Position numbers and translations under genes: made by a program
Notes under the pieces: generated by a model
What the model was told of the DNA's origin: nothing
The model's database searches: none
The model's input: only the letters and a program-made list of their open reading frames with translations
Assembly (NCBI RefSeq): GCF_005298175.1
Contig: NZ_SZYH01000001.1
Location: 1,860,001-1,924,000 of the forward strand
Length of the DNA: 64,000 nucleotides
Reading direction: 5' to 3'
Source of the DNA: Marinobacter panjinensis
GTDB lineage: Bacteria; Pseudomonadota; Gammaproteobacteria; Pseudomonadales; Oleiphilaceae
Shown: positions 2,024-17,191 of the stretch, one piece after another
How the letters are laid out: every line of letters starts with the position of its first letter
Numbering within the stretch: position 1 is the stretch's first letter

Positions 2024-3592
2024 TTATTCCTGCAGCTGTTTCGGGTCAACCTGCTTCACGGTGGACAGCTTCTGCACCATGCTGGTGGTCTGTTTGCGGC
2101 CACCAAACATGTTGAACTCGCTGTCGCCGTTGCAGCCGTCGCCGAAGCTGAACCCGCAACCACCACGCTCGCCGTGAGCATCGGGGAAGGCTTCCTTCGC
2201 CAGCTCGCGATGACTGGTGGGAATCACGAAGCGGTCCTCGTAGTTGGCAATGGCCAGGTAACGGTACATTTCATCGGCCTGGGCCTTGGTCAGCCCGGCT
2301 TCCTGAAGAGCCCGCAGGTCTTCCTTGCCTTCCACAGTTTCCGCGCGCTTGTACAGACGCATGGCCATGATCCGCTTGAGGGCACGGACAATCGGCTTCT
2401 CGTCGCCAGCCGTCAGCAGGTTGGCCAGGTACTTGACCGGAATCCGCAGGCTTTCGATCTTCGGCAGTATGCCGTCAAACTCAACCTTGCCGGCTTCCGC
2501 CGCAGACTGGATCGGGCTCAGTGGCGGCACGTACCAGACCATGGGCAGGGTGCGGTATTCCGGGTGCAGTGGCAGAGCGAGTTTCCAGTCCACTGCCATC
2601 TTGTAGACCGGGCTTTGCTGGGCGGCTTCGATGACGTTCATCGGGATGCCATCCTTTTTCGCCTGCTCGATCACCTTCGGATCGTTCGGATCCAGGAAGA
2701 TTTCCAGCTGCTTCTCGTACAGCTCATGCTCGCCCGGGGTGCTGGCCACTTCTTCAATGCGGTCAGCATCGTAAAGCAGCACGCCCAGATAGCGGATGCG
2801 GCCGACGCAGGTCTCGGAGCACACGGTAGGCAGGCCGGCTTCAATCCGCGGGTAGCAGAAGATGCATTTTTCGGACTTGCCGGTTTTCCAGTTGAAGTAG
2901 ATTTTCTTGTACGGGCAGCCGGACACACACATCCGCCAGCCACGGCACTTGTCCTGGTCGATCAGTACGATGCCGTCTTCCTCACGCTTGTAGATAGCGC
3001 CGCTGGGGCAGCTGGCCACACAGGTGGGGTTGAGGCAGTGCTCGCACAGGCGCGGCAGGTACATCATGAATGTATTTTCGAACTGGCCATAGATGTCCGC
3101 CTGTACCTGGTCGAAGTTCTTGTCCTTGCGACGCTTGGCAAACTCGGTACCCAGGATTTCTTCCCAGTTCGGGCCCCATTCGATTTTCTGCATGCGCTGG
3201 CCGGAGATCAGCGACCGTGGCCGTGCTACCGGTTGATGCTTACTGTCACCGGCGGTATGCAGGTGCTGGTAATCGAAATCGAACGGCTCGTAGTAGTCAT
3301 CGATCTGCGGCAGATCCGGGTTGGCGAAAATGTTCGCCAGAATCCGGAAGCGGCCACCGATCTTCGGGCGGATCTTGCCGGAGCTGTCGCGCATCCAGCC
3401 GCCTTTCCACTTGTCCTGGTTTTCCCATTCTTTGGGATAGCCGATACCGGGCTTGGTTTCGACGTTGTTAAACCAGGCGTACTCCATGCCTTCACGGCTG
3501 GTCCATACGTTTTTGCAGGTCACCGAACAGGTGTGGCATCCGATGCACTTGTCCAGGTTCAGTACCATGCCGACTTGGGAACGGATTTTCAT
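2024..3592 (-). CDS. narH: Respiratory nitrate reductase beta subunit NarH
   Basis: NarH carries the Fe-S relay between NarI hemes and the NarG active site, on the cytoplasmic face. The 522-residue product has four cysteine clusters: CIGCHTCSVTC near the N terminus, CEHCLNPTCVASC near residue 184, CRGWRMCVSGC near 217, and a spaced set from CIFC to CSETC near 244-263. In the third cluster Trp replaces one Cys (C-R-G-W), the known sign of a [3Fe-4S] centre. The start ATG 3592 overlaps the narG stop by four bases (ATGA), so the two are likely translationally coupled. Confidence 0.98.
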   Translation of the reverse strand: MKIRSQVGMVLNLDKCIGCHTCSVTCKNVWTSREGMEYAWFNNVETKPGIGYPKEWENQDKWKGGWMRDSSGKIRPKIGGRFRILANIFANPDLPQIDDYYEPFDFDYQHLHTAGDSKHQPVARPRSLISGQRMQKIEWGPNWEEILGTEFAKRRKDKNFDQVQADIYGQFENTFMMYLPRLCEHCLNPTCVASCPSGAIYKREEDGIVLIDQDKCRGWRMCVSGCPYKKIYFNWKTGKSEKCIFCYPRIEAGLPTVCSETCVGRIRYLGVLLYDADRIEEVASTPGEHELYEKQLEIFLDPNDPKVIEQAKKDGIPMNVIEAAQQSPVYKMAVDWKLALPLHPEYRTLPMVWYVPPLSPIQSAAEAGKVEFDGILPKIESLRIPVKYLANLLTAGDEKPIVRALKRIMAMRLYKRAETVEGKEDLRALQEAGLTKAQADEMYRYLAIANYEDRFVIPTSHRELAKEAFPDAHGERGGCGFSFGDGCNGDSEFNMFGGRKQTTSMVQKLSTVKQVDPKQLQE

Positions 3593-6500
3593 TTTACAGC
3601 CTCCTGAACAGTGTCATTACCTTCGCCATCGAGCCAATCGATGTTGTGCATCTTGCGCACTACCACGAACTCGTCGCGGTTGGAGCCTACGGTGCCGTAG
3701 TAGTTGAAGCCGTAGGAATACTGCGCGTAACCGCCGATCATGTGGGTCGGTTTCGGGCACACCCGGGTGACCGAGTTGTGGATACCGCCGCGGGTGCCGG
3801 TGATCTCGGAACCGGGAATATTCACTATCCGCTCCTGGGCGTGATACATCATCACCATGCCTGGCATGACCCGCTGACTGACTACCGCCCGGGCCGCGAT
3901 GGCACCGTTGGCGTTGAACAGCTCGATCCAGTCGTTATCTTCAATTGCCAGCTCTTTGGCGTCGTCCTCACTCAGCCACACGATCGGCCCACCGCGGGAC
4001 AGGGTCAGCATCAGCAGGTTGTCACTGTAGGTACTGTGGATACCCCACTTCTGGTGCGGCGTGATCCAGTTCAGCGCTTTCTCGGCGTTGCCGTTGCTGC
4101 GCTGGTTCAGCATGCTGCTGACCGTCTTGGTGTTGATGGGCGGACGGTAGACCAGCAGGCTCTCGCCGAAAGCGCGCATCCACTCATGATCCTGGTAGAA
4201 CTGCTGGCGACCGGTCAGGGTGCGCCAGGGAATCAGCTCGTGGACGTTGGTGTAGCCGGCGTTGTAGGACACGTGCTCGTCTTCCAGACCAGACCAGGTC
4301 GGGCTGGAGATGATCTTGCGCGGCTGCGCCACGATATCCCGGAAGCGTATTTTTTCCTCTTCCTTGTTCTTCGCCAGATGGCTGTGGTCCAGGCCAGTGA
4401 ACTCGGACAGTGCTGCCCAGGCCTTCACCGCTACCTGGCCGTTGGTTTCCGGCGCCAGGGTCAGGATCACTTCTGCCGCGTCAATGGCGCTTTCGATCTT
4501 CGGACGGCCGGCGTTGGCCCCGTCTATATGCTTGTAGTTCAGGTCGCCGAGGAACTTCACTTCCTTCTCGGTGTTCCAGTTGATGCCCTTGCCACCGTTG
4601 CCCAGCTTGTCCAGCAGCGGCCCGAGTGAGGTAAAGCGTGCATAGGTGTTCGGGTAGTCACGCTCAACGGTGATGAAGTTGGGCGCAGTCTTGCCCGGAA
4701 TCAGTTCGCACTCACCACGCTTCCAGTCCTTCACGTCGAAGGGCTGGCCCAGCTCGGCCGGTGCGTCGTGCAGCAGCGGCAGGGTAACCACGTCTTTCTC
4801 GACACCCAGGTGACCTTCGGTTGCTTTGGAGAACGCCTTGGCAATGCCCTTGTAGATTTCCCAGTCACTACGCGCTTCCCAGGCCGGATCAGTGGCGGCA
4901 GTCAGCGGGTGAATGAACGGGTGCATGTCCGAGGTATTCAGGTCGTTTTTCTCATACCAGGTGGCGGTCGGCAGAACGACGTCGGAATACAGGCATGTGG
5001 TGGACATGCGGAAGTCCAGGGTCACCAGCAGGTCAAGCTTGCCTTCCGGCGCTTCGTCATGCCATTTCACTTCCGTCGGCTTGGCGCCGCCTTCGTGGCC
5101 AAGATCCTTGCCTTGCAGGCCACTCTTGGTACCCAGCAGGTACTTGAGCATGTACTCATGGCCCTTGCCGGAGGAGCCCAGCAGGTTGGAACGCCACACA
5201 AACAGGTTGCGCGGACAGTTCTGCGGCGCTTCCGGGTCTTCACTGGCGAAGGCCAGGGAGCCGTCCTTCATGGACTGGGCCACATAATCGGCCACTTCCA
5301 TGCCGGCTTTCTCGGCTTCGGCTGCGATACCCAGCGGGTTGCGGTTCAGTTGTGGCGCAGACGGCAGCCAGCCCATGCGCTCGGCGCGGACGTTGTAGTC
5401 AATCAGGCTGCCACTGAATTTGGACTTGTCCGCCAGCGGCGACAGGATTTCGTCCACACCCAGTTTCTCGTAGCGCCACTGGCCGGAGTGGGCATAGAAG
5501 AAGGAGGTTGAGTTCATATGGCGCGGCGGGCGCTGCCAGTCAAGACCAAACGCCAGCGGCTGCCAGCCGGTCTGCGGTCGCAGTTTTTCCTGGCCCACGT
5601 AGTGGGCCCAGCCACCACCGCTCTGGCCGATACAGCCACACATGATCAGCATGTTGATCAGGCCACGGTAGTTCATGTCCATGTGGTACCAGTGGTTCAT
5701 ACCGGCACCAACGATAACCATGGAACGGCCCTTGGTCTTGTCCGCGTTGTCGGCGAACTCGCGGGCAATGCGGATTACTTTGTGAGCGGGAACACCGGTG
5801 ATCTTTTCCTGCCAGGCCGGGGTGTAAGGCTTCACTTCGTCATAGGAAGTGGCACCGTCATCGTCGCCCAGACCGCGACTGATACCATAGTTGGCCACCA
5901 TCAGGTCGAATACGGTGACCACACGGCCTTCGCTGCCGTCAGCCAGCTGCACTTTGCGACTGCCCAGCTTGTGAGTCAGGGTGTCGGAGATCTCTACGCT
6001 CTTGAAATGGTCATGCTCGATTCCGCCAAAGTACGGGAACGCCACATCCACCACATCATCGTGTTTCTCCACCATGGAGAGCTGCAGCTCCACATCGGCG
6101 CTGTCAGCGGTCTGCTTCAGGTTCCACTTGCCTTTCTGCCCCCAGCGGTAACCGATAGAGCCGTTAGGCGCGGTTAGCTGATTGGTTTTCTCGTCGATGG
6201 CGATGGTTTTCCACTCGGGGTTATTCTCTTCCCCAAGGCCATCCACCAGGTCACTGGCACGCAGGAAGCGGCCGGGCACGTAACGGCCATCCTCGCGCTT
6301 ATCCAGCATGACCAGGTAGGGCATGTCGGTATAGCGGCGAACGTAGTCGGTAAAATACTCGCTGGGCTTGTCGACGTGGAATTCCTTCAGAATCACGTGG
6401 CCCATGGCCATGCCCAGGGCCGCATCGGTGCCCTGCTTCGGGTTCATCCACTCGTCAGACAACTTGGAGACTTCGGCGTAGTCCGGAGTAATGGCGACCG

Positions 6501-7332
6501 TCTTGGTGCCCTTGTAACGCACTTCGGTGAAGAAGTGGGCGTCCGGGGTACGGGTCTGGGGTACGTTGGAGCCCCAGGCGATGATGTAGCCGGAGTTGTA
6601 CCAGTCGGCGGACTCCGGCACGTCGGTCTGCTCACCCCAGGTTTGCGGTGAAGCCGGCGGCAGGTCGCAGTACCAGTCGTAGAAACTCATGCACACGCCA
6701 CCGATCATGGACAGGTAACGGCTGCCGGCCGCGTAGGACACCATGGACATGGCCGGGATCGGCGAAAAGCCGATGATACGGTCAGGGCCGTATTTTTTGG
6801 CGGTGTACACGTTGGAGGAGGCAATCAGCTCGTTGACTTCGTCCCAGCTGGAGCGCACGAAACCACCCATCCCGCGGCGGGGCTTGTACTCGGCGGTTTT
6901 CTTCGGGTCTTCCACGATGGAGGCCCAGGCATCCACAGGATCCTTGTGTTGCGTTTTTGCTTCACGCCACAGCCTCATCAGGTGCTTGCGCATCAGCGGG
7001 TATTTCAGGCGGTTGGCGCTGTACATGTACCAGGAGTAACTGGCGCCGCGGGGGCAGCCGCGGGGCTCGTGGTTGGGCAGGTCCGGACGGGTACGGGGAT
7101 AATCGGTCTGCTGGGTTTCCCAGGTGACCAGGCCGTTCTTGACGTAGATTTTCCAGCTGCAGGAACCGGTGCAGTTTACACCGTGGGTGGAGCGCACGAT
7201 CTTGTCATGCTGCCAGCGCTGGCGGTAGCTGTCTTCCCACTCGCGGCTGACATCGTGGGTTTCGCCGTGGCCGTTGGCGAACGGCTCGCGCTTTTTCCTG
7301 AAGTAATTCAGTTTGTCGATCAAATGACTCAT
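3589..7332 (-). CDS. narG: Respiratory nitrate reductase alpha subunit NarG
   Basis: NarG is the catalytic Mo-bisMGD subunit that reduces nitrate to nitrite in the cytoplasm. Start ATG 7332 (reading MSHLIDKL) gives 1247 residues, the family length. The FS0 cluster ligands H50, C54, C58 and C93 fall at exactly the E. coli positions, and the segment around residues 215-245 that bears the Asp ligand to molybdenum is intact. An upstream frame extension to 7461 was rejected because it lacks homology and would run into the intergenic palindrome. It lies 141 bases after narK and heads narGHJI. Confidence 0.98.
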   Translation of the reverse strand: MSHLIDKLNYFRKKREPFANGHGETHDVSREWEDSYRQRWQHDKIVRSTHGVNCTGSCSWKIYVKNGLVTWETQQTDYPRTRPDLPNHEPRGCPRGASYSWYMYSANRLKYPLMRKHLMRLWREAKTQHKDPVDAWASIVEDPKKTAEYKPRRGMGGFVRSSWDEVNELIASSNVYTAKKYGPDRIIGFSPIPAMSMVSYAAGSRYLSMIGGVCMSFYDWYCDLPPASPQTWGEQTDVPESADWYNSGYIIAWGSNVPQTRTPDAHFFTEVRYKGTKTVAITPDYAEVSKLSDEWMNPKQGTDAALGMAMGHVILKEFHVDKPSEYFTDYVRRYTDMPYLVMLDKREDGRYVPGRFLRASDLVDGLGEENNPEWKTIAIDEKTNQLTAPNGSIGYRWGQKGKWNLKQTADSADVELQLSMVEKHDDVVDVAFPYFGGIEHDHFKSVEISDTLTHKLGSRKVQLADGSEGRVVTVFDLMVANYGISRGLGDDDGATSYDEVKPYTPAWQEKITGVPAHKVIRIAREFADNADKTKGRSMVIVGAGMNHWYHMDMNYRGLINMLIMCGCIGQSGGGWAHYVGQEKLRPQTGWQPLAFGLDWQRPPRHMNSTSFFYAHSGQWRYEKLGVDEILSPLADKSKFSGSLIDYNVRAERMGWLPSAPQLNRNPLGIAAEAEKAGMEVADYVAQSMKDGSLAFASEDPEAPQNCPRNLFVWRSNLLGSSGKGHEYMLKYLLGTKSGLQGKDLGHEGGAKPTEVKWHDEAPEGKLDLLVTLDFRMSTTCLYSDVVLPTATWYEKNDLNTSDMHPFIHPLTAATDPAWEARSDWEIYKGIAKAFSKATEGHLGVEKDVVTLPLLHDAPAELGQPFDVKDWKRGECELIPGKTAPNFITVERDYPNTYARFTSLGPLLDKLGNGGKGINWNTEKEVKFLGDLNYKHIDGANAGRPKIESAIDAAEVILTLAPETNGQVAVKAWAALSEFTGLDHSHLAKNKEEEKIRFRDIVAQPRKIISSPTWSGLEDEHVSYNAGYTNVHELIPWRTLTGRQQFYQDHEWMRAFGESLLVYRPPINTKTVSSMLNQRSNGNAEKALNWITPHQKWGIHSTYSDNLLMLTLSRGGPIVWLSEDDAKELAIEDNDWIELFNANGAIAARAVVSQRVMPGMVMMYHAQERIVNIPGSEITGTRGGIHNSVTRVCPKPTHMIGGYAQYSYGFNYYGTVGSNRDEFVVVRKMHNIDWLDGEGNDTVQEAVK

Positions 7333-7448
7333 GGTCTCTCTCTCCATCTGCCCGTCTGCCGGATCGCTGTTCTGATGCAGCTCCGATTTGAGACCATTGT
7401 GAGTGAGAAAAACCCTGAAATCTGCGTGGTTACTACCACATAACCCAC

Positions 7449-7470
7449 CTCTACCACCCAAGTGGTAGAG
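7449..7470. promoter_or_regulatory. Perfect palindrome between narK and narG: possible NarL 7-2-7 site or mRNA stem-loop
   Basis: CTCTACCAC (7449-7457) and GTGGTAGAG (7462-7470) form a perfect 9-bp stem with a CCAA loop. Inside it, TACCACC and AGTGGTA are two TAC-type heptamers in inverted order separated by two bases, the 7-2-7 layout bound by phosphorylated NarL (heptamer consensus TACYYMT; TACCACT fits at six of seven positions). It lies 117 bases upstream of the narG start and just after the narK stop. It could instead be an RNA hairpin that separates narK from narGHJI levels. No T-run follows it on either strand. Confidence 0.5.
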
Positions 7471-7473
7471 GCC

Positions 7474-8751
7474 CTATACACCCTTGTGTAACAACACCCG
7501 GCGCTCCTCGCGACGGTAGTCCCGGGCGAACATGAACAGACTGCCGGTCAGCAGTACGAAAAGGATCATGAACATGGCCGTACCCACGCCGACCCAGTGA
7601 ATCATGGCGCCGAAAAGCACCGGCAGCAGAAACGCAACCAGGCAGGCACTGAACAGCAACATTCCGGCGGCGAAGGCCGCTGCCTCACGGTTTTCCTCAA
7701 CGACCATGCGCTGGAGACCACCCATGGCGGAGCCCAGCGCGATGCCCAGCAGGACTATGAAGAAAGCTTCGAGAAAGAGTGGCAGGGAGAGCTCCAGTGA
7801 AATCACTGAATCAATGCCATGAACCGACAGCGTCATCGGAGGATAGGACAGCACGAACAGGGCTGCCAGACAGGCCACCAGTGAACGCACTACCACTCTG
7901 CCCGCCCCGTAGCGATCTGACAGTCCCCCTCCCAGAATCTGCGCCAGGGCGCCGGGTATCACAAACCACAACGCCAGCCGGGCACCCGACTCCATGGTCA
8001 GCAGGAAACGGGAGGCCATGAAATCCGGCAGCCATAACGCCAGGGAAAAAAAGCTCCCGGCTACCACTCCAAAATACAGATACAGTCGCCACACCCGCAG
8101 GTTTTCAAGGCGACGCAACAGTTGCCTGGCACTGGTTTCAACATTAGGGTCGCCACGGGAATCCGAATCGTCCGTCAGCAACACCAGCAGGGTGGTCACC
8201 AACAAAAGAACAACCAGATAGGCAAGTGGCACGCCTTTCCAGGAGAATGCCTGCACAATCAGCGGAACCAGATAATAATTGAAGCCGGCGCCCGTCACTC
8301 CGGCACCGAATACGCCCAGTACCAGCCCCATATGTCGGGAGGAGGCATGACTGGTCACGAACTGAAGGCCAGCGCTGTAAAATCCGCCGGCAAGGCCCAG
8401 ACCAGCCGCAACCAGCAGGTACCCGGCCCAGGTTTCCACCACCAGCAGCAATGCCATAGACACGGAAAGGCCGAGCAGGCAGGCAATCATGACCCGCCTT
8501 GCACCCAGCTTCTGGGCGGCAATGCCCGCCGGCACCGCCAACAAGGCACCAGCAGCCATGGGCGTTGCCAATAACAGGCCAAACTCCAGGCTGCCCAACC
8601 CCAGAGCATTCCGAAGATGCGCGCCGGCCACGGCAAAAATGGTCCAGCAACCGGCTGCAATAACAAAGCCAACGACCGCCAGCGGAAGAACCACTGCCAG
8701 CGATGTCAGTTTATCGTTATCGTCATCGTCACCAATGGAGAAAGGCTGCAT
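7474..8751 (-). CDS. narK: NarK-family nitrate/nitrite transporter (MFS)
   Basis: This major-facilitator protein would import nitrate for NarG and/or export nitrite. Start ATG 8751 (reading MQPFSIG) gives 425 residues with about 12 membrane segments; the conserved glycine-rich stretch around GLGLAGGFYSAG is present. An earlier TTG at 8808 is in frame but has no better ribosome site. A run of acidic residues (GDDDDNDK) precedes the first membrane segment. It is a single narK rather than the narK1-narK2 pair of P. aeruginosa, and lies directly upstream of narG on the same strand. Transport direction cannot be told from sequence. Confidence 0.93.
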   Translation of the reverse strand: MQPFSIGDDDDNDKLTSLAVVLPLAVVGFVIAAGCWTIFAVAGAHLRNALGLGSLEFGLLLATPMAAGALLAVPAGIAAQKLGARRVMIACLLGLSVSMALLLVVETWAGYLLVAAGLGLAGGFYSAGLQFVTSHASSRHMGLVLGVFGAGVTGAGFNYYLVPLIVQAFSWKGVPLAYLVVLLLVTTLLVLLTDDSDSRGDPNVETSARQLLRRLENLRVWRLYLYFGVVAGSFFSLALWLPDFMASRFLLTMESGARLALWFVIPGALAQILGGGLSDRYGAGRVVVRSLVACLAALFVLSYPPMTLSVHGIDSVISLELSLPLFLEAFFIVLLGIALGSAMGGLQRMVVEENREAAAFAAGMLLFSACLVAFLLPVLFGAMIHWVGVGTAMFMILFVLLTGSLFMFARDYRREERRVLLHKGV

Positions 8752-8910
8752 GACACTATCCACCCGAAGCCAACTTGCAGTTTCATGTTTTGCCCTGCAC
8801 AGGGTCAAAGACTATGATGGGGGATCGACTATTGGGGTAATCACGGGTGCCTGACTATCCTCAAGGAGGTACACTCCCTCCATATTTGCTGTACCCAACG
8901 AAGAGACCAG
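8752..8910. promoter_or_regulatory. Divergent narK-narX control region
   Basis: This 159-base gap separates narKGHJI from narXL. Several NarL-like heptamers are present: TACCCCA on the minus strand at 8833-8839, TACCTCC on the minus strand at 8865-8871, and TACCCAA at 8892-8898. CTGAC-TATC-CTCAA at 8851-8864 is a weak FNR/ANR-type box (7 of 10). In pseudomonads the equivalent region is controlled by ANR, NarL and IHF. The heptamer motif is short, so single matches mean little. No convincing -10 was found at the expected distance from the weak box. Confidence 0.4.
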
Positions 8911-10770
8911 ATGACACGCAATAGCCCCCTTGTAAAACGCATCGCCATTGTCGTTGGCGCCGTCGTACTGACTGCCATTGTCAGCATGGCCACTACTCTC
9001 GGGGTATCACGCAGCATCGAGGGCAATGCGACGGCCATTAATATTGCCGGTTCACTGCGTATGGGCGCTTATGAATTGCTTGCCCGCTCTGCAGCCGACC
9101 CGACAGAACACCACGCCACGACATTTATGGCCGGGCTGGATGCTTACCAGCAACGTATGGCACACCCCGGATTCACCCAGGCAATCCCCAGTGGCAAAGA
9201 TCATCCGCTGGCGAAACAGCACCAGATTATGGAATCCCTCTGGCACGGTGAACTTAGCCCGGCTCTGGTAGCCAATGCCCCGAACAGCACTCGGGTGACG
9301 GAAGACCTGATAACAGTGACAGAGCGCTATGTGGCTGAGGTAGATAAACTGGTCAGCATGCTTGAGCACCGGACCGAGGCCCGCGTCGATCTGTTGCACC
9401 TGATCCAGATCATCAGCCTGGTGCTCTCGATACTGATTATTTTTGGACTTTACCTCGATATCAAAAAACGGGTACTTCGCCCGCTGCGCAAACTGATGGA
9501 CATTGCGGTCGCGGTGGGTGAGCAGGATTTCTCGCACAAGGCCAACCTGAAAGGCTCGGATGAGCTGTCCCAGCTAGGTATTGCCTTTGACCAGATGACC
9601 AGTGAACTGGCCCTGAGCTACAACGAACTGAAAGAAGACGCCATGGCAAAAACCCGGGAACTGGAGAAGAGCCACGCGGCCCTGGAATTGCTCCATTCGT
9701 CCAGTCGCTCCCTGTTTGCCAATCACGACCTCTGCAACGGCGCCATCCCCATGCTTCAGGATCTGGAGCAGTTGCTTGGCATCGGCCCCATCCGTCTTTA
9801 CCTGCACGACAAGAACTCCAGCGAGCCGGTCGAAGCCATTACCACTTCTACCAAGGATCGGCCGTTCTACTGTAAGGATCACCACTGCAATGCCTGCCTG
9901 GTAACTCCGGAAGTGTTTGATGAGCTGCCAAATGAGGGCAACGACGGCCGAAGACTGCTGTTGCCGATTCGCACACCGGGACAGCTTCTGGGTACCCTGG
10001 AAGTCTGGTACCCAGCCAGCAAGGGGCTTTCCCAGACCGCCCGCCGCCTGCTGGAAACCCTGAGTGACCAGTTGGCTACGGCCATCTTCCTGGAACGCCA
10101 GATTACCGAGGAGCAACAGCTCACCCTGGCAGAGGAACGCACTGTGATTGCCCGGGAACTCCATGATTCCCTGGCCCAGTCGCTGTCCTATCTGAAGATG
10201 CAGGTAGCACGGCTCCGTCGTCTCGATATCAAGGGAGAGCATGAAAAGGTCCACAATGACATTCTGGAAGAGCTGAGTACCGGCCTGAACAGCGCTTACC
10301 GTCAACTACGGGAGCTGCTGACCACCTTCCGGCTGAAACTGGATACCCCCGACCTGGCCACAGCCTTGAGGCAAACCGCGGAGGAGTTCTCTGAACGCCT
10401 GGGCAGTGAGGTGAAACTGGACTACCGTCTGCCACCGCAAACGCTGTCTCCCAACGAAGAAATTCATACCCTGCAGATTGTCCGCGAAGGGTTGGCCAAT
10501 GCCGTCAAGCACTCTGAAGCATCGGAAATTCTGGTGCAGGTGCTGTTTGAATCTCCCAGGGTAAGCGTCAGAATACTTGATAATGGTAAAGGTCTGCCGA
10601 ATGGTGACCAGCCGTCACAGCACTATGGGCTGATTATCATGCAGGACCGGGCCCGCACCCTGGGCGGAAAAGTCAACGTCCTTAACCGTGACACCGGCGG
10701 TGTCGAAGTGGCGCTGAGCTTTGTGCCCAAGAGCCGGCACCTGATTACATCCGAAGCCGCTGGCGGCTGA
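8911..10770 (+). CDS. narX: Nitrate/nitrite sensor histidine kinase NarX
   Basis: NarX senses periplasmic nitrate and phosphorylates NarL. The 619-residue product has a first membrane helix (about 9-30), a periplasmic four-helix domain whose P-box includes NIAGSLRM (44-51), a second membrane helix (about 163-183), HAMP (184-240), a GAF-like central region with a cysteine group at 321-329 (CKDHHCNAC), a HisKA_3 domain with phospho-acceptor H418 (ARELHDS), and a C-terminal ATPase. R50 in the P-box corresponds to the nitrate-contacting Arg of E. coli NarX. narL follows after 35 bases. Confidence 0.96.
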
Positions 10771-13124: not shown

Positions 13125-15128
13125 TTAAGGCAGTGTCGAGTCCAATGCCCATTGGGGGAAAGGCTTCCAGCGGGCAAGCCAGTCAGCCAATTTGTCCGGG
13201 GCTATCGGTGGCGATATCCCATAGCCCTGGGCGAACTCACATCCCAGACTCAGCAGCACTTCCCCCTGCTCTATGGTTTCCACGCCCTCGGCAATCAGTT
13301 CCCTGCCAAAAACCCTGGACAAGCCGATGATCCCCCTCAGGATTGAGAGGTTCTCCTCGGTATCACCCGCACCACTTACAAATTCGCGATCTATCTTGAG
13401 AGTGTCCACGGGCAACTGCTTCAGATAGGACAGCGACGAATACCCGGTACCAAAATCATCCAGTGAAAAAGTGACACCAAGCCGCTTGCAATCAACAATG
13501 ATACTCACCGCTCGCTCAAGCTCACCCAATGTTGCCGTTTCCAGTATTTCAAGGTCAAGGCGCCCGGGATCCTGTTCAGGAAACCGGGCCAGTATGCCCT
13601 TTAGCTGCTCGGCGAATCCAGGCTCCAGCAACTGAATTGCGGCAATATTTACACTGATATCAAGATGAATTCCCTGGCTGTCCCAGGCCTTCATTTGCGT
13701 CAGCGCTTCAAGCAATACCCACTCGCCCAACTCGATCATCAAGGGGTGGTAGTCAATCGCTGGCAGGAAGGCAGCGGGGGAAAGTAAACCATTATCCGGA
13801 TGCTCCCACCGGATCAGAGCCTCAACCCCGTTTACCTCACCGCTCCTGAGATTGACCTTTGGCTGGTAAAAAAGTCTGAACTGCCCGTTTTCAAGACCTT
13901 TCCTGATATCTGACAGCAGCAACTGCCGGGACCTGTTTGCTTTCTTTTCTTCCACATCCAGGAACAGCCAGCTGCCTTTGAGTTCGTGCTTGGCCCGAAA
14001 AAGCGTATTGTCAGCTTGCCGTAAGAGTGTGTCTGCATCTTCAGCCATATCCCCCATATCCTTATCGGGAAACAACACGATACCCGCTGAAAACGATATG
14101 TGCGCCGACTCGCCACCAAGATCGAAAGGCAGCCGGCCAGTCAGCTGCAGGGCATGAAGCCTGGACTCCACCTGGCTGGCATCCGGGAGAAGAAGCACAA
14201 ACTCATCTCCGCCAATCCGCGCGAGAGCCGCATCGTAAGGCAGTGCATCAAGCCACCGCCGAGCGAGTAATCCCAGCATGCGATCAGCGGCCTCTTCCCC
14301 AAATCGGCTATTAATCTCGTGGAAGTTGTCCAGGTCTATTGAAACCAGTGCCGCCGAGTCTTCTTCCAGATCGGCACGATCAAGCAATTCGCGAATAAAA
14401 CGGGTAATGCCATTACGGTTCCATAGCCCTGTGAGAGCGTCTGAATAGGCAAGAAATTCCACCTGCTTCTGATGATCACTTGCTTGAGCCTCCAGAGCCT
14501 GTTGCAACCGCTCGTTCTGCAGGCAACGCAGTTCGTCCTCAGCTTTTTGCCTGGCCATCTTTTCACGCATCAACTGAATTGTGCTATCAGACAGTTTGCC
14601 GTAGATCTCCAGCAAAGCGTTTACAAGCACTGAGACGGAACCACTCAGTTCCGAATCCACATATTCTCGCGCCTCCTTCGGAGGCTTGCCTGCTTCCAGC
14701 GCTTCCACAGTCAGTGCCATGCGCCGGTCTGATTCCAATATATGAAAGGCGAGCCAATGAGTCAGATAATCGAACAGTTCAGCCAAAACATCATCCTGTG
14801 GCGCTTTGCTTTGGCGAAGGGTCTGGATTCGCGCAAAAAACATCTGGTGAGACTTGTGGTGATTTCTTGATATCTCCGACTCTCCAAAGCTCTTCTTCCA
14901 GATACCTTCCTCATACTCAAAATGATAGGAGGCGTAGGCCAGAAGCTCTTCAAGCAGATGGGAGCCATCCTCCTGCGAACTACTGGAAGCAAAGTGCCAC
15001 GCCAGCCGGTTGAGGATATTCACCAGCACTCGATGCTGATCATCAATATCTTTCAGTCCGGTTTCGAAGTTACAGTTCCAGGGGAAAATCTCAAAAGCAT
15101 CAGATTCGTTCGCCCGATTTATTGTCAC
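13125..15128 (-). CDS. Bacteriohemerythrin-GGDEF-EAL protein (c-di-GMP turnover)
   Basis: The protein joins an N-terminal hemerythrin domain (about 15-140 from the start used), a coiled linker (about 160-225), a GGDEF domain and an EAL domain. Hemerythrin residues include an early H in DDQHRVL, HFEYEE, HHKSH and a final [11 protein letters not shown], enough for a di-iron O2 site. The cyclase motif is an intact IGGDEF. The phosphodiesterase part keeps EAL, the Asn of ISVNIA, the Asp pair of [10 protein letters not shown], the Lys of LKID and the Glu of AEGVET, so both activities are possible. GTG 15128 behind GGAG was chosen; GTG 15185 is an alternative adding 19 residues. O2 or NO sensing is inferred. 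Confidence 0.88.
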
Positions 15129-15208
15129 AGTTCTCGGACTCCAATGTGAAAAGACAACTATTAGCAGTGTAGCCCAAGTTTCCACATGAGATCCGTCAAT
15201 TTACCGGC

Positions 15209-16051
15209 TCAGATCAGCCCCAGCTCCAGCCGTGCCTCCTCTTCCAGATTGTCGTAGCTCCAGGGAGGATCAAACACGATATCCACCTGGGCATCTTCAA
15301 CGTGGGGAACCTGTAGCAGCTTGCCTTTCACATCGCCGGCAATGATGTCACCCATTCCGCAACCCGGTGACGTCAGTGTCATTTCAACACGTACAGAATG
15401 GCTGTCCTGATCAATATCCAGTTTATAGATAAGCCCGAGAGCGACCACGTTCACCGGAATTTCCGGGTCGTAGACCAGACGCATCGAATCCCAACATTGT
15501 TGCTGACTGATCTGCCCATCCTCCGGCGGTTCGAACATGATGGCGTCTGAATGGAAGCCCAGTTGTCGCGTGACCTCCGGAGAAAGACGGTACAGGTTGC
15601 CCTCGTAGTTAACCGTGAAGCTTCCACCGAGTGCCTGCGTTATCGAGACGGATGCCCCCTCCGGAAGGGTTACAGCGTTTCCGTATGGCACCCGCAAGGC
15701 TTCACAGTTTTGCGACAACACGAAGGTTTTGGGTGGTTTTGCCGGCTGTTTCGCATTCGGTGCCTTGATGGTCAGGCACTGGAGTTTCCCCTCCCCCTGA
15801 ACACCAATCTGCATATCCTGCAGGTAAGGGACACTCACCTCATCGAAATACAGCACCAGTTCATCAAACTCTTTACGGACATCCCCCGGCGACTCCTCGC
15901 CCGGCGGACAGAAGGCCAGGCATGTTTCGGCATGCTGGGTGCCGGCCTTGTCCACATACACACGCGCCGCCATCCCGGGCACTTCCTGCTTCGCAAGCAA
16001 AGTGACCAGATAGTCACGGGCTTCCGGTTTCACTTCAGCATTGATGTTCAC
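15209..16051 (-). CDS. Fusion of NfuA N-terminal (degenerate A-type) domain with SufT (DUF59) domain
   Basis: Residues 10-102 match the first domain of NfuA, including ETCLAFCPP (C44, C48), a YFDE motif and the closing LTIKAPNAK. Instead of the Nfu CXXC domain, residues 108-280 read as a full SufT: a beta-rich start with VTLPEGASVSITQALGGSFT and a MIP18/DUF59 part with DPEIPVNVVALGLIY and conserved C231 in TSPGCGMG. Both families act in Fe-S cluster maturation or delivery, so this may be a targeting-domain/SufT carrier. Start is GTG 16051, behind AAGGTGAG in the end of a 44-codon gene; the two form an operon. Neither half looks decayed. A separate NfuA may exist elsewhere. Confidence 0.85.
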   Translation of the reverse strand: MNINAEVKPEARDYLVTLLAKQEVPGMAARVYVDKAGTQHAETCLAFCPPGEESPGDVRKEFDELVLYFDEVSVPYLQDMQIGVQGEGKLQCLTIKAPNAKQPAKPPKTFVLSQNCEALRVPYGNAVTLPEGASVSITQALGGSFTVNYEGNLYRLSPEVTRQLGFHSDAIMFEPPEDGQISQQQCWDSMRLVYDPEIPVNVVALGLIYKLDIDQDSHSVRVEMTLTSPGCGMGDIIAGDVKGKLLQVPHVEDAQVDIVFDPPWSYDNLEEEARLELGLI

Positions 16052-16054
16052 GAT

Positions 16055-16189
16055 CTACTCACCTTTTCTGCGTTTTTCACGTTCCCGTTTAACCTGGTTC
16101 GATTTGCATTCATTACTTACGAGATCCAGCCACCTCAGGTGCTGATCCCAGATCGGGTCTTTCGATTTTTTCGGTTTGTCGCTAGTCAT
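16055..16189 (-). CDS. Small charged protein of 44 residues, unknown function
   Basis: Start ATG 16189 follows GAGAGGTAACG. The product is highly charged: a Lys-rich N terminus (TSDKPKKSKDP), two Trp in the middle, one Cys and a Lys/Arg-rich tail (KREREKRRKGE). It has no membrane segment or signal peptide. It ends three bases before the NfuA-SufT start, whose ribosome site lies inside it, so the two are probably co-translated. It was not recognised as a known family. An acidic or nucleic-acid partner is possible from its charge, but that is a guess. Confidence 0.7.
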   Translation of the reverse strand: MTSDKPKKSKDPIWDQHLRWLDLVSNECKSNQVKREREKRRKGE

Positions 16190-16210
16190 CGTTACCTCTC
16201 CGTGCACTGA

Positions 16211-16229
16211 GACAATGAGAATAATTCTT
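16211..16229. promoter_or_regulatory. Fur-like box
   Basis: GACAATGAGAATAATTCTT matches the 19-bp Fur consensus (GATAATGATAATCATTATC) at 14 positions. It lies 22-40 bases upstream of the 44-codon gene that leads the NfuA-SufT operon and just before the -35 of the divergent RIC-like gene. Iron control of Fe-S assembly genes is common. Binding is not shown. Confidence 0.55.
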
Positions 16230-16256
16230 GACACCAATTAAGATGTATTATATATA
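16228..16256 (+). promoter_or_regulatory. Sigma-70 promoter of the RIC-like gene
   Basis: TTGACA (16228-16233), a 17-base spacer and TATATA (16251-16256) give a near-consensus promoter 30 bases before the ATG at 16286. The -10 lies within the NsrR-like palindrome, so a bound repressor would block it. Confidence 0.75.
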
Positions 16257-16262
16257 TATCTT
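16240..16262. promoter_or_regulatory. NsrR-like operator
   Basis: This 23-bp near-palindrome has left half AAGATGTATT (16240-16249) and right half TATATATCTT (16253-16262) with a 3-base centre. The left arm matches the NsrR half-site AAGATGYATTT at 10 of 11; the right arm is weaker. NsrR is a NO-sensing Fe-S repressor that in many gammaproteobacteria controls RIC/YtfE and hmp. Its position over the -10 of a RIC-like gene makes the call more likely. No nsrR gene is in the window. Confidence 0.65.
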
Positions 16263-16285
16263 ATCGCAAGATAGGAGAATCAGCA

Positions 16286-16765
16286 ATGAACAATCAACAA
16301 ACACCGATTGAGGAGCTGGATACCGACGTGCTGCTGGAGCTCATATTGCAGGGCTACGATGTCGGTCATCTCCAGCAGCTACCCAAGCTTCACCGGCTTG
16401 CCCGCAAGATCGAGGCAGTGCACAGGGCGAACCCCGATGTTCCAAAAGGCATTACATTGGCTGTCAAAAAGCTGGAGCACACCCTCACCGATCACATCGA
16501 GAAAGAAAACACCTATGTTCTGAAACGAATGGAGCATGACCAGCCGCCCAGCCCAGACACACCAATCGCTCAAATGAACGAGGAGCATTCACTCATCAAG
16601 CGGCAACTGAAAAAGCTTCGCCTGATGACCCGGAACTACCAGGCTCCGGATTCTGCCTGCCGATCCTGGCAGCGCTTCTACCGCGAGCTCAAAGCTCTGG
16701 ATTTCAGCGTGTCTGAGCAAATCTACCTGGAACGGGATGTGCTATTCCCGAGATTTCAGTTTTGA
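16286..16765 (+). CDS. RIC/YtfE-like hemerythrin-fold protein without the N-terminal ScdA domain
   Basis: The 159-residue product aligns with the C-terminal di-iron domain of YtfE (repair of iron centres), which repairs Fe-S clusters after NO or oxidative damage. The usual DUF542 domain in front is absent. Of the six YtfE ligands, four are kept (the His/Glu of DHIEKE, the His of NEEH and the Glu of YLERD). The first His is Asp (GYD, where YtfE has RYH) and the fourth is Gln (EQIYLE, where YtfE has DHISLE). The di-iron site may therefore be altered or lost. It has its own promoter and an NsrR-like operator, and diverges from the NfuA-SufT operon. Confidence 0.75.
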   Translation: MNNQQTPIEELDTDVLLELILQGYDVGHLQQLPKLHRLARKIEAVHRANPDVPKGITLAVKKLEHTLTDHIEKENTYVLKRMEHDQPPSPDTPIAQMNEEHSLIKRQLKKLRLMTRNYQAPDSACRSWQRFYRELKALDFSVSEQIYLERDVLFPRFQF

Positions 16766-16845
16766 AGGCTGGTAACTCCTGGAGTGTGGCATAGAATCCT
16801 GATTCCGTATTTTCGGTTTGATTGCCTGAATCACCTGCTAACCTT

Positions 16846-17191
16846 CATATTGAATTATTCCGGCGTTCCTGCCGTGAAGGCGTCTGTGGCTCCGACGGGC
16901 TCAGCATCAACGGCCGCAATGGCCTGGGCTGTTTTACCAACGTTGCGGATGCGCTGGCTGATCAACGATACGCCGGACCCTGCCATTGAAAGGCTGCAAA
17001 GCCCGGAGGATCGCGCAAAGCTGGACGGGTTATACGAGTGCATTCTCTGCGCCTGCTGCACCTCCGCCTGCCCATCCTGGTGGTGGAATCCTGAGAAGTA
17101 CATTGGACCATCGGGACTGTTGCAGGCCTACGGGTTTCGGTCAGACTCCCGGGATACCGACACCCGCGAACGCCTGGAGGAACAGGTCTGA
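16846..17191 (+). pseudogene. sdhB: Fragment of succinate dehydrogenase iron-sulfur subunit (sdhB remnant)
   Basis: Two frames together give parts of SdhB. From 16846 one frame reads [20 protein letters not shown], the [2Fe-2S] loop, as far as about 16950. A second frame reads [20 protein letters not shown] and then the first half of the second cysteine region ([11 protein letters not shown]), stopping at 17191. About 35-40 codons are missing between them, along with the N-terminal 50 or so residues and everything after the last seen motif (RLEEQV). No sdhA, C or D is near. This is a decayed partial copy, probably from an old duplication or rearrangement; the working sdh operon must be elsewhere. 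Confidence 0.88.

Follow-up and report, generated by a model that had tools for sequence, protein, structure and literature searches.

The window, that is, the whole stretch of 64,000 nucleotides that was analysed, contained a gene on the minus strand (15209 to 16051) that begins with GTG and encodes a protein of 280 aa without an internal stop; on the plus strand, the same interval was interrupted by stops. A sequence-only reading of this DNA had described the product as the targeting domain of NfuA joined, in one open frame, to a complete SufT standing in place of the Nfu domain. When the two halves were searched separately against profiles, as that reading had proposed, each gave its own match in the expected order, and every architectural detail examined proved correct. 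Residues 1 to 103 (15743 to 16051, minus strand) constituted a NfuA-type degenerate A-type domain, of which residues 7 to 103 aligned with positions 3 to 98 of the 190 positions in the NCBIfam model of NfuA (TIGR03341; 83.3 bits, E 1.9e-23), a score far below the cut-off of 269.35 set for the entire protein, which is what half of NfuA should give. This half terminated in APNAK, as in NfuA, and generic A-type models matched it more weakly (TIGR00049, 21.8 bits; ErpA, 16.1 bits; IscA, 13 bits). Residues 111 to 280 (15212 to 15721, minus strand) corresponded to a complete long SufT, composed of the beta domain and DUF59; residues 111 to 279 covered positions 2 to 174 of the 174 positions in the long SufT model (TIGR03406) at 197.7 bits, slightly below the cut-off of 202.6. 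DUF59 (residues 184 to 257) was the sole Pfam match in the fusion, and no Pfam Nfu match was obtained in it at E 1. The N-terminal half is not an ordinary part of SufT proteins: the stand-alone SufT of the same genome (180 aa) matched the SufT model from position 1 with its residues 7 to 179.

Cys231 (codon 15359 to 15361, minus strand), which had been assigned to DUF59 on first inspection, was the one invariant DUF59 cysteine and was conserved in all 30 aligned fusions, none of which contained the CxxC motif that provides the cluster ligands of Nfu. The two cysteines of the N-terminal half of NfuA, both present in 21 of 21 NfuA proteins, were found at residue 44 in 31 and at residue 48 in 32 of 34 fusions. 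Each of the three A-type cluster-ligand cysteines was present in 14 of 14 SufA and in 0 of the same 34 fusions, a count made without the row of the window's fusion, which itself has Cys44 and Cys48 and lacks the three A-type ligands. An AlphaFold2 model based on the 30 aligned fusions had a mean pLDDT of 81 and a pTM of 0.46, which makes the predicted domains credible and their mutual orientation not confident; Foldseek matched this model to DUF59 structures (3cq2, 3lno) and to the A-type carriers SufA (2d2a) and IscA (1r94). A search with the whole chain retrieved other fusions: 87 of 120 homologues (the best 120 of 7465 matches) covered at least 91% of the query, which excludes chance or an assembly error as the origin of the fusion. 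Intact orthologues were 97% and 94% identical to the window's protein, and records named as Marinobacter reached up to 94% with the same layout.

Among the matches listed, a full-length fusion was present in 21 of 124 Marinobacter genomes; a broken copy in genome G082 (L060) was left out of the 21. Outside the genus, fusions were identified in at least seven genomes of two families, in a sample of 390 genomes from the order, and all seven genomes also encoded a stand-alone SufT. Twelve further order-wide matches that spanned both halves with an internal stop (e.g., G162, G169, and G367) were rejected as fusions; three of them were fetched, of which two (L098 and L100) proved to be separate sufA and sufT genes; in the third (L099), a single match ran across both halves and contained a stop. 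None of 243 matching plasmid records covered 80% of the window's fusion.

The genome of the window also carried a full NfuA in addition to the stand-alone SufT of its suf operon, and NfuA above the cut-off was found in every one of the 21 genomes checked for it, including 14 fusion carriers. Two trees were constructed by a quick method, with 35 fusion rows chosen from the protein-search homologues and the fetched loci rather than all fusions. In the tree of 71 N-terminal halves, based on few columns, all 35 fusions formed one clade (SH-aLRT 100), and NfuA and the fusions together parted from SufA and ErpA (SH-aLRT 96). This grouping and the absence of CxxC bear out that SufT occupies the place of the Nfu domain; a derivation of the A-type half from the SufA of suf operons was ruled out by the tree and the cysteines. 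In the tree of 67 SufT halves, which was flagged for long branches that meet, 31 of 32 stand-alone SufT proteins formed one clade (99) with the fusions outside it; the exception (P0092) starts at the SufT half and was nested among the fusions. Both trees, together with the stand-alone NfuA and SufT that the genome has in addition to the fusion, suggest an old, separately inherited paralogue as the most likely history rather than a recent accident.

Within the window, the fusion lay near the narG gene of the nitrate island, encoding the nitrate reductase alpha subunit (3589 to 7461, minus strand; TIGR01580, 2353 bits, above the cut-off), and the genes between the two were named narK, narX, and narL by reading, without a family scan. 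The stop codon of a conserved small ORF of 44 aa (16055 to 16189, minus strand) begins 6 bp before the fusion start. An NsrR-type palindrome, AAGATGTATTATATATATATCTT (16240 to 16262, no strand), was located between the fusion and a divergent gene for a RIC/YtfE-like di-iron Fe-S repair protein of 159 aa (16286 to 16765, plus strand; TIGR03652 58-216, 101.6 bits), followed by fragments of a decayed second SdhB, the Fe-S subunit of succinate dehydrogenase (16855 to 17182, plus strand), which is intact in relatives. A consensus promoter scan of 15100 to 16900 gave one weak site, a number no higher than in shuffled sequences, and no promoter is claimed. The score of the RIC-like protein was below the cut-off of 204.7, as was that of its 223-aa relative in M. 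denitrificans; the window's protein lacked about the first 67 residues of this relative, and similar forms were observed in L041, L045, L046, and L048. The small ORF, with the core WDQHLRWLDLVSNEC, was mostly 44 to 46 aa long and was present in 17 of the 21 loci, in 14 of which its stop codon fell 1 to 9 bp before the fusion start; it had an early stop in one of the 17, Marinobacter sp. ELB17 (L051). Intact second SdhB genes were observed in L005 (4142 to 4855), L041 to L043, L045 to L048, L052, L057, and L059, and the second SdhB proteins of relatives were approximately 70% identical to the main SdhB.

Neighbouring genes were scanned around 20 copies in stretches of up to 20 kb, in a shorter stretch from one further genome (L029), and in the window. 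The 21 full Marinobacter copies were distributed over two contexts, 14 in a nitrate island and six in an accessory suf operon, while one at a contig edge (L058) was counted in the 21 and in neither class. At the 14 nitrate-island loci, nar genes were present in the stretch in 13, a divergent second RIC gene in 10, and a second SdhB gene in 12, including the broken copy of the window. Among the matches listed, fusion genomes more often had narG above the cut-off (20 of 21, against 61 of the 103 other genomes; Fisher p = 9e-4) and more often had a RIC match of any score (16 of 21, against 33 of 103; p = 4e-4); neither test corrects for kinship.

In the six suf-operon copies, the gene order was sufB-sufC-sufD-sufA-fusion. 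A 5' remnant of sufT remained between sufA and the fusion in four of the six and, in part, in L055; in L050 it was not seen. This remnant indicates that the fusion took the place of sufT in those operons, and no other observation argues as strongly that it performs SufT-type work. The accessory Fe-S island in these genomes (L050, L051, which is the same as L006, and L053 to L056) contained sufBCD, sufA, and the fusion, with further genes that read as ErpA-like, Nfu-like, Mrp-like, and YdiU/SelO-like.

The palindrome of the window agreed with 13 of the 14 fixed positions of the NsrR motif gATGyAT-N5-ATrCATc, as given in the available part of PMC1274295. A scan of the 4.42-Mb genome with up to three mismatches detected three sites, compared with one for a reversed-pattern control; the pattern was the published core extended by two outer bases per side taken from the window's site, which favours that site, so that it had one mismatch and a second site two, and on the published core alone both had one. 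A norB-like gene (Pfam NorB) starts 21 bp after the end of the second site and is followed by the first RIC gene, about 30 kb from the fusion. At 0.8 kb from the norB site, an nsrR-like gene was identified, whose best NsrR match of 141.8 bits was below the cut-off of 182. As a single-locus finding, the palindrome is of modest rarity: depending on the locus, between 0 and 18% of 60 random windows contained an equally good match. It recurred upstream of the fusion at 13 of the 14 nitrate-island loci and at L058 and was absent in L044, though these orthologous loci are not independent of one another. Its distance from the fusion start was 47 to 65 bp in L052, L058, and L059, 302 bp in L046, and 206 to 218 bp elsewhere, and it was kept in L042, L047, and L049, where no RIC gene was found beside the fusion.

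Upstream of the six suf-operon copies, the best motif matches had three to five mismatches and corresponded to other stretches, mostly inside the small ORF; the site was counted as absent at all six, though three of them have a match with four or fewer mismatches. Upstream of the seven non-Marinobacter fusions, the best matches had four to six mismatches, with three of the seven passing at four or fewer. None of the matches passing at this threshold in either group was the same palindrome.

Two of the seven loci outside Marinobacter contained a RIC gene together with an Rrf2 gene. Within 10 kb, L091 carried RIC (above the cut-off), NorB, NnrS, and the first part of an Rrf2 gene that runs off the stretch; at L097, RIC (above the cut-off) and an NsrR-like gene (below the NsrR cut-off) were located 1.6 to 2.7 kb from the fusion. 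The fusion of L092 was adjacent to ubiU/ubiV-like genes, and no NO gene was recognised within about 10 kb in L093 to L096.

These distributions bear on what the fusion serves. The sequence-only reading had proposed a carrier for the Fe-S enzymes of nitrate respiration. In such a case, the fusion would load NarG and NarH under anaerobic conditions and have no special role in NO damage, in line with the nar genes in 13 of the 14 nitrate islands and with the narG association. That association takes no account of kinship, and 61 of the 81 genomes with narG above the cut-off have no full fusion among the matches listed; moreover, the conserved control site is of the NsrR type, and no nar operon was recognised beside any of the seven non-Marinobacter fusions. 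We therefore consider a role confined to nitrate enzymes unlikely. The proposed restriction to nitrate-respiration enzymes is too narrow, and NO stress fits better on account of the recurring NsrR-type site, RIC, norB, NnrS, and Rrf2 regulators.

A comparable architecture was found in Alphaproteobacteria. Second copies of Nfu_N (PF08712) were present in four of 299 genomes of the phylum, and two of the four were Nfu_N-DUF59 fusions (L179 and L181); the other two (L178 and L180) read as Nfu paralogues with CxxC and were rejected. In a protein search with the L179 fusion, all of the best 120 of 7191 matches had both domains, and they included records named Bradyrhizobium, Mesorhizobium, and relatives. 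The alphaproteobacterial fusion occurred in at least four of 397 genomes of one order (that of L181 included) and in one of 76 in the order of the L179 genome. It consists of Nfu_N and DUF59 without the SufT beta domain. Comparison by hhalign of the alpha- and gammaproteobacterial N-terminal domains gave a probability of 0.3% (E 0.23), whereas the DUF59 parts gave 99.7% (E 6.7e-27); the N-terminal domains are predicted to adopt the folds of the NFU1 N-terminus (2ltm) and of SufA/IscA, respectively. Unrelated N-terminal domains combined with related DUF59 parts indicate two separate fusion events, in which different Nfu docking modules became linked to SufT-type proteins.

All five alphaproteobacterial loci that were read encode a protein of 450 aa and a DUF2249 protein, followed by the fusion, with TusA as well in L179. 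An Rrf2-like gene was located less than 5 kb from the fusion in four of the five; in L244 the contig begins inside the operon. The Rrf2 proteins of L179 and L245 scored slightly higher against RirA than against NsrR, both below the cut-off, and the five stretches had no match to NorB, NnrS, nirK, or RIC. A kindred operon with a stand-alone DUF59 protein was found in Sinorhizobium meliloti and Ensifer canadensis beside hemN, NnrS, and nirK, and in the latter also beside norD, while Mesorhizobium loti encoded a stand-alone DUF59 protein with Rrf2, DUF2249, pseudoazurin, and NosL. The link of the alphaproteobacterial fusion to NO is drawn from the Rrf2 gene and these kindred rhizobial operons. 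DUF2249 genes are also upregulated under denitrification in a haloarchaeon, according to the available part of PMC11218638. Five rhizobial denitrification islands with the stand-alone DUF59 and DUF2249 operon were observed (L249, L250, L213, L247, and L248), plasmid-borne except for L247, and the 450-aa protein occurred in most of these operons. The 450-aa protein of the fusion loci had once been considered NnrS-like; it gave no Pfam match, and this reading was dropped. In L181, the product of an ORF at 8477 to 8911, next to the fusion and the Rrf2 gene, resembles a truncated haemoglobin on reading, with no Pfam match at 1e-3.

The recurrence of two independent fusion types near Rrf2 genes also argues against regarding the gammaproteobacterial protein as a plain second SufT for general Fe-S assembly that hitch-hikes in a nitrate/NO island. 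The six genomes in which the fusion occupies the sufT position, four of them with the 5' remnant, favour such a second SufT, as does the lack of a recognised NO gene in four of the seven non-Marinobacter loci. Those same six genomes, however, retain an intact stand-alone SufT elsewhere, and the NsrR-type site is kept even at loci with no RIC detected next to the fusion; on balance we regard a plain second SufT as rather unlikely. Alternatively, the docking target of the A-type half may be RIC or a partner carrier of the A-type family, such as ErpA, so that a cluster or iron donor is recruited to SufT. An association of NfuA with ErpA is described in the available part of PMC8593673, and RIC is the divergent neighbour at 10 of the 14 nitrate-island loci. 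Recruitment of this kind appears very improbable, as three loci with the site have no RIC found beside the fusion, and the alphaproteobacterial fusions have an unrelated N-terminal domain and no RIC-like match in their loci.

We propose instead, with a probability of roughly 0.55, that the fusion serves as a delivery factor for Fe-S clusters, induced by NO, with SufT taking the place of the [4Fe-4S]-binding Nfu head. Destruction of the NsrR cluster by NO would lift NsrR repression, and the fusion would be produced. Its NfuA-type domain may keep the client-docking role and find apo- or damaged Fe-S enzymes, and the SufT part would then supply or insert the cluster, completing delivery in place of the Nfu head. 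The exposed cluster of the Nfu head would be open to attack by NO. SufT may substitute for this head because NO would destroy it. The clients would be respiratory Fe-S proteins, perhaps SdhB, which is suggested by the frequent second copy in the same locus; in relatives, this second SdhB may represent a spare client.

Several published observations, taken here from the available parts of the papers, are consistent with this proposal. In NfuA, the A-type domain targets apo-proteins and the Nfu domain binds a [4Fe-4S] cluster (PMC8593673). Mutations in sufT and nfu act synergistically in Staphylococcus aureus, where additional Nfu offsets part of the defect caused by the loss of SufT (PMC4982691). 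Depletion of SufT in Mycobacterium tuberculosis lowered survival under NO approximately 2.5-fold, at 1 mM DETA/NO only (PMC9045647). Against the NO-induced delivery factor stand the six of 21 Marinobacter fusions that lie in the accessory suf operon and have neither the site nor RIC, the four loci without a recognised NO gene and the fifth with ubiU/ubiV-like neighbours, the nsrR-like genes below the NCBIfam NsrR cut-off, and the five alphaproteobacterial loci without a match to NorB, NnrS, nirK, or RIC.

It may fairly be inferred that the job of SufT is client delivery, as had been suggested from the fusion itself, and the independent alphaproteobacterial fusion of an Nfu N-terminal domain with a SufT-type protein strengthens this notion. 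A broader generalisation is offered only tentatively, and we doubt it more than we trust it: bacteria would have swapped the Nfu head for SufT at least twice, via two unrelated Nfu docking domains, obtaining NO-proof delivery under an NO-sensing Rrf2 repressor. SufT would then be an NO-resistant equivalent of the Nfu head, and the switch in Marinobacter would also make a spare apo-SdhB client. SufT found twice where the Nfu head would be expected, each time with another docking domain, would amount to a natural domain-swap experiment, which predicts that SufT and the Nfu head are interchangeable in delivery. A reason for the swap is suggested by the NO context, which would also provide a clear phenotype and hints that cells recovering from NO may require a dedicated delivery step in addition to RIC.

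Taken as a whole, the sequence-only interpretation is partly supported, with its emphasis shifted from nitrate respiration to NO. A fusion of an Nfu N-terminus with SufT was mentioned in one sentence in 2016 for Oligotropha carboxidovorans (OCA5_c02770; PMC4982691), the available part of which gives no NO link for it, so that the general type is not wholly new. Among the papers listed, mostly non-subscription literature judged by titles and abstract openings, none dealt with an A-type SufT fusion or an NO role of such fusions. OCA5_c02770 resembles the window's protein in having an Nfu-family N-terminal domain joined to SufT. The alphaproteobacterial fusions identified here differ from the latter in that their N-terminal domain is Nfu_N (PF08712, NFU1 fold) and not of the A-type and their DUF59 lacks the SufT beta domain; by analogy, we infer that OCA5_c02770 is probably of the same kind.

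NfuA shares with the fusion the degenerate A-type N-terminal domain and its two cysteines, whereas its C-terminal Nfu domain with CxxC is absent from the fusion and SufT is found instead. HCF101/ApbC-type proteins and CIA2 are similar in that DUF59 lies within a larger Fe-S delivery protein; in these, DUF59 is fused with a P-loop ATPase or functions within the CIA targeting complex, and they are not known to have an Nfu-type domain. RIC/YtfE/ScdA proteins have the locus and the NsrR-type site in common with the fusion in Marinobacter, but they are di-iron, hemerythrin-type proteins with no sequence relation to it. The closest counterpart of the C-terminal part is long SufT (TIGR03406), with the same beta domain, DUF59, and conserved cysteine. 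The fusion differs from it in the extra 103-residue NfuA-type domain, in its position outside the clade of suf-operon SufT, and, in the window, in its location outside a suf operon, a placement that the fusion does have in six of the 21 Marinobacter genomes.
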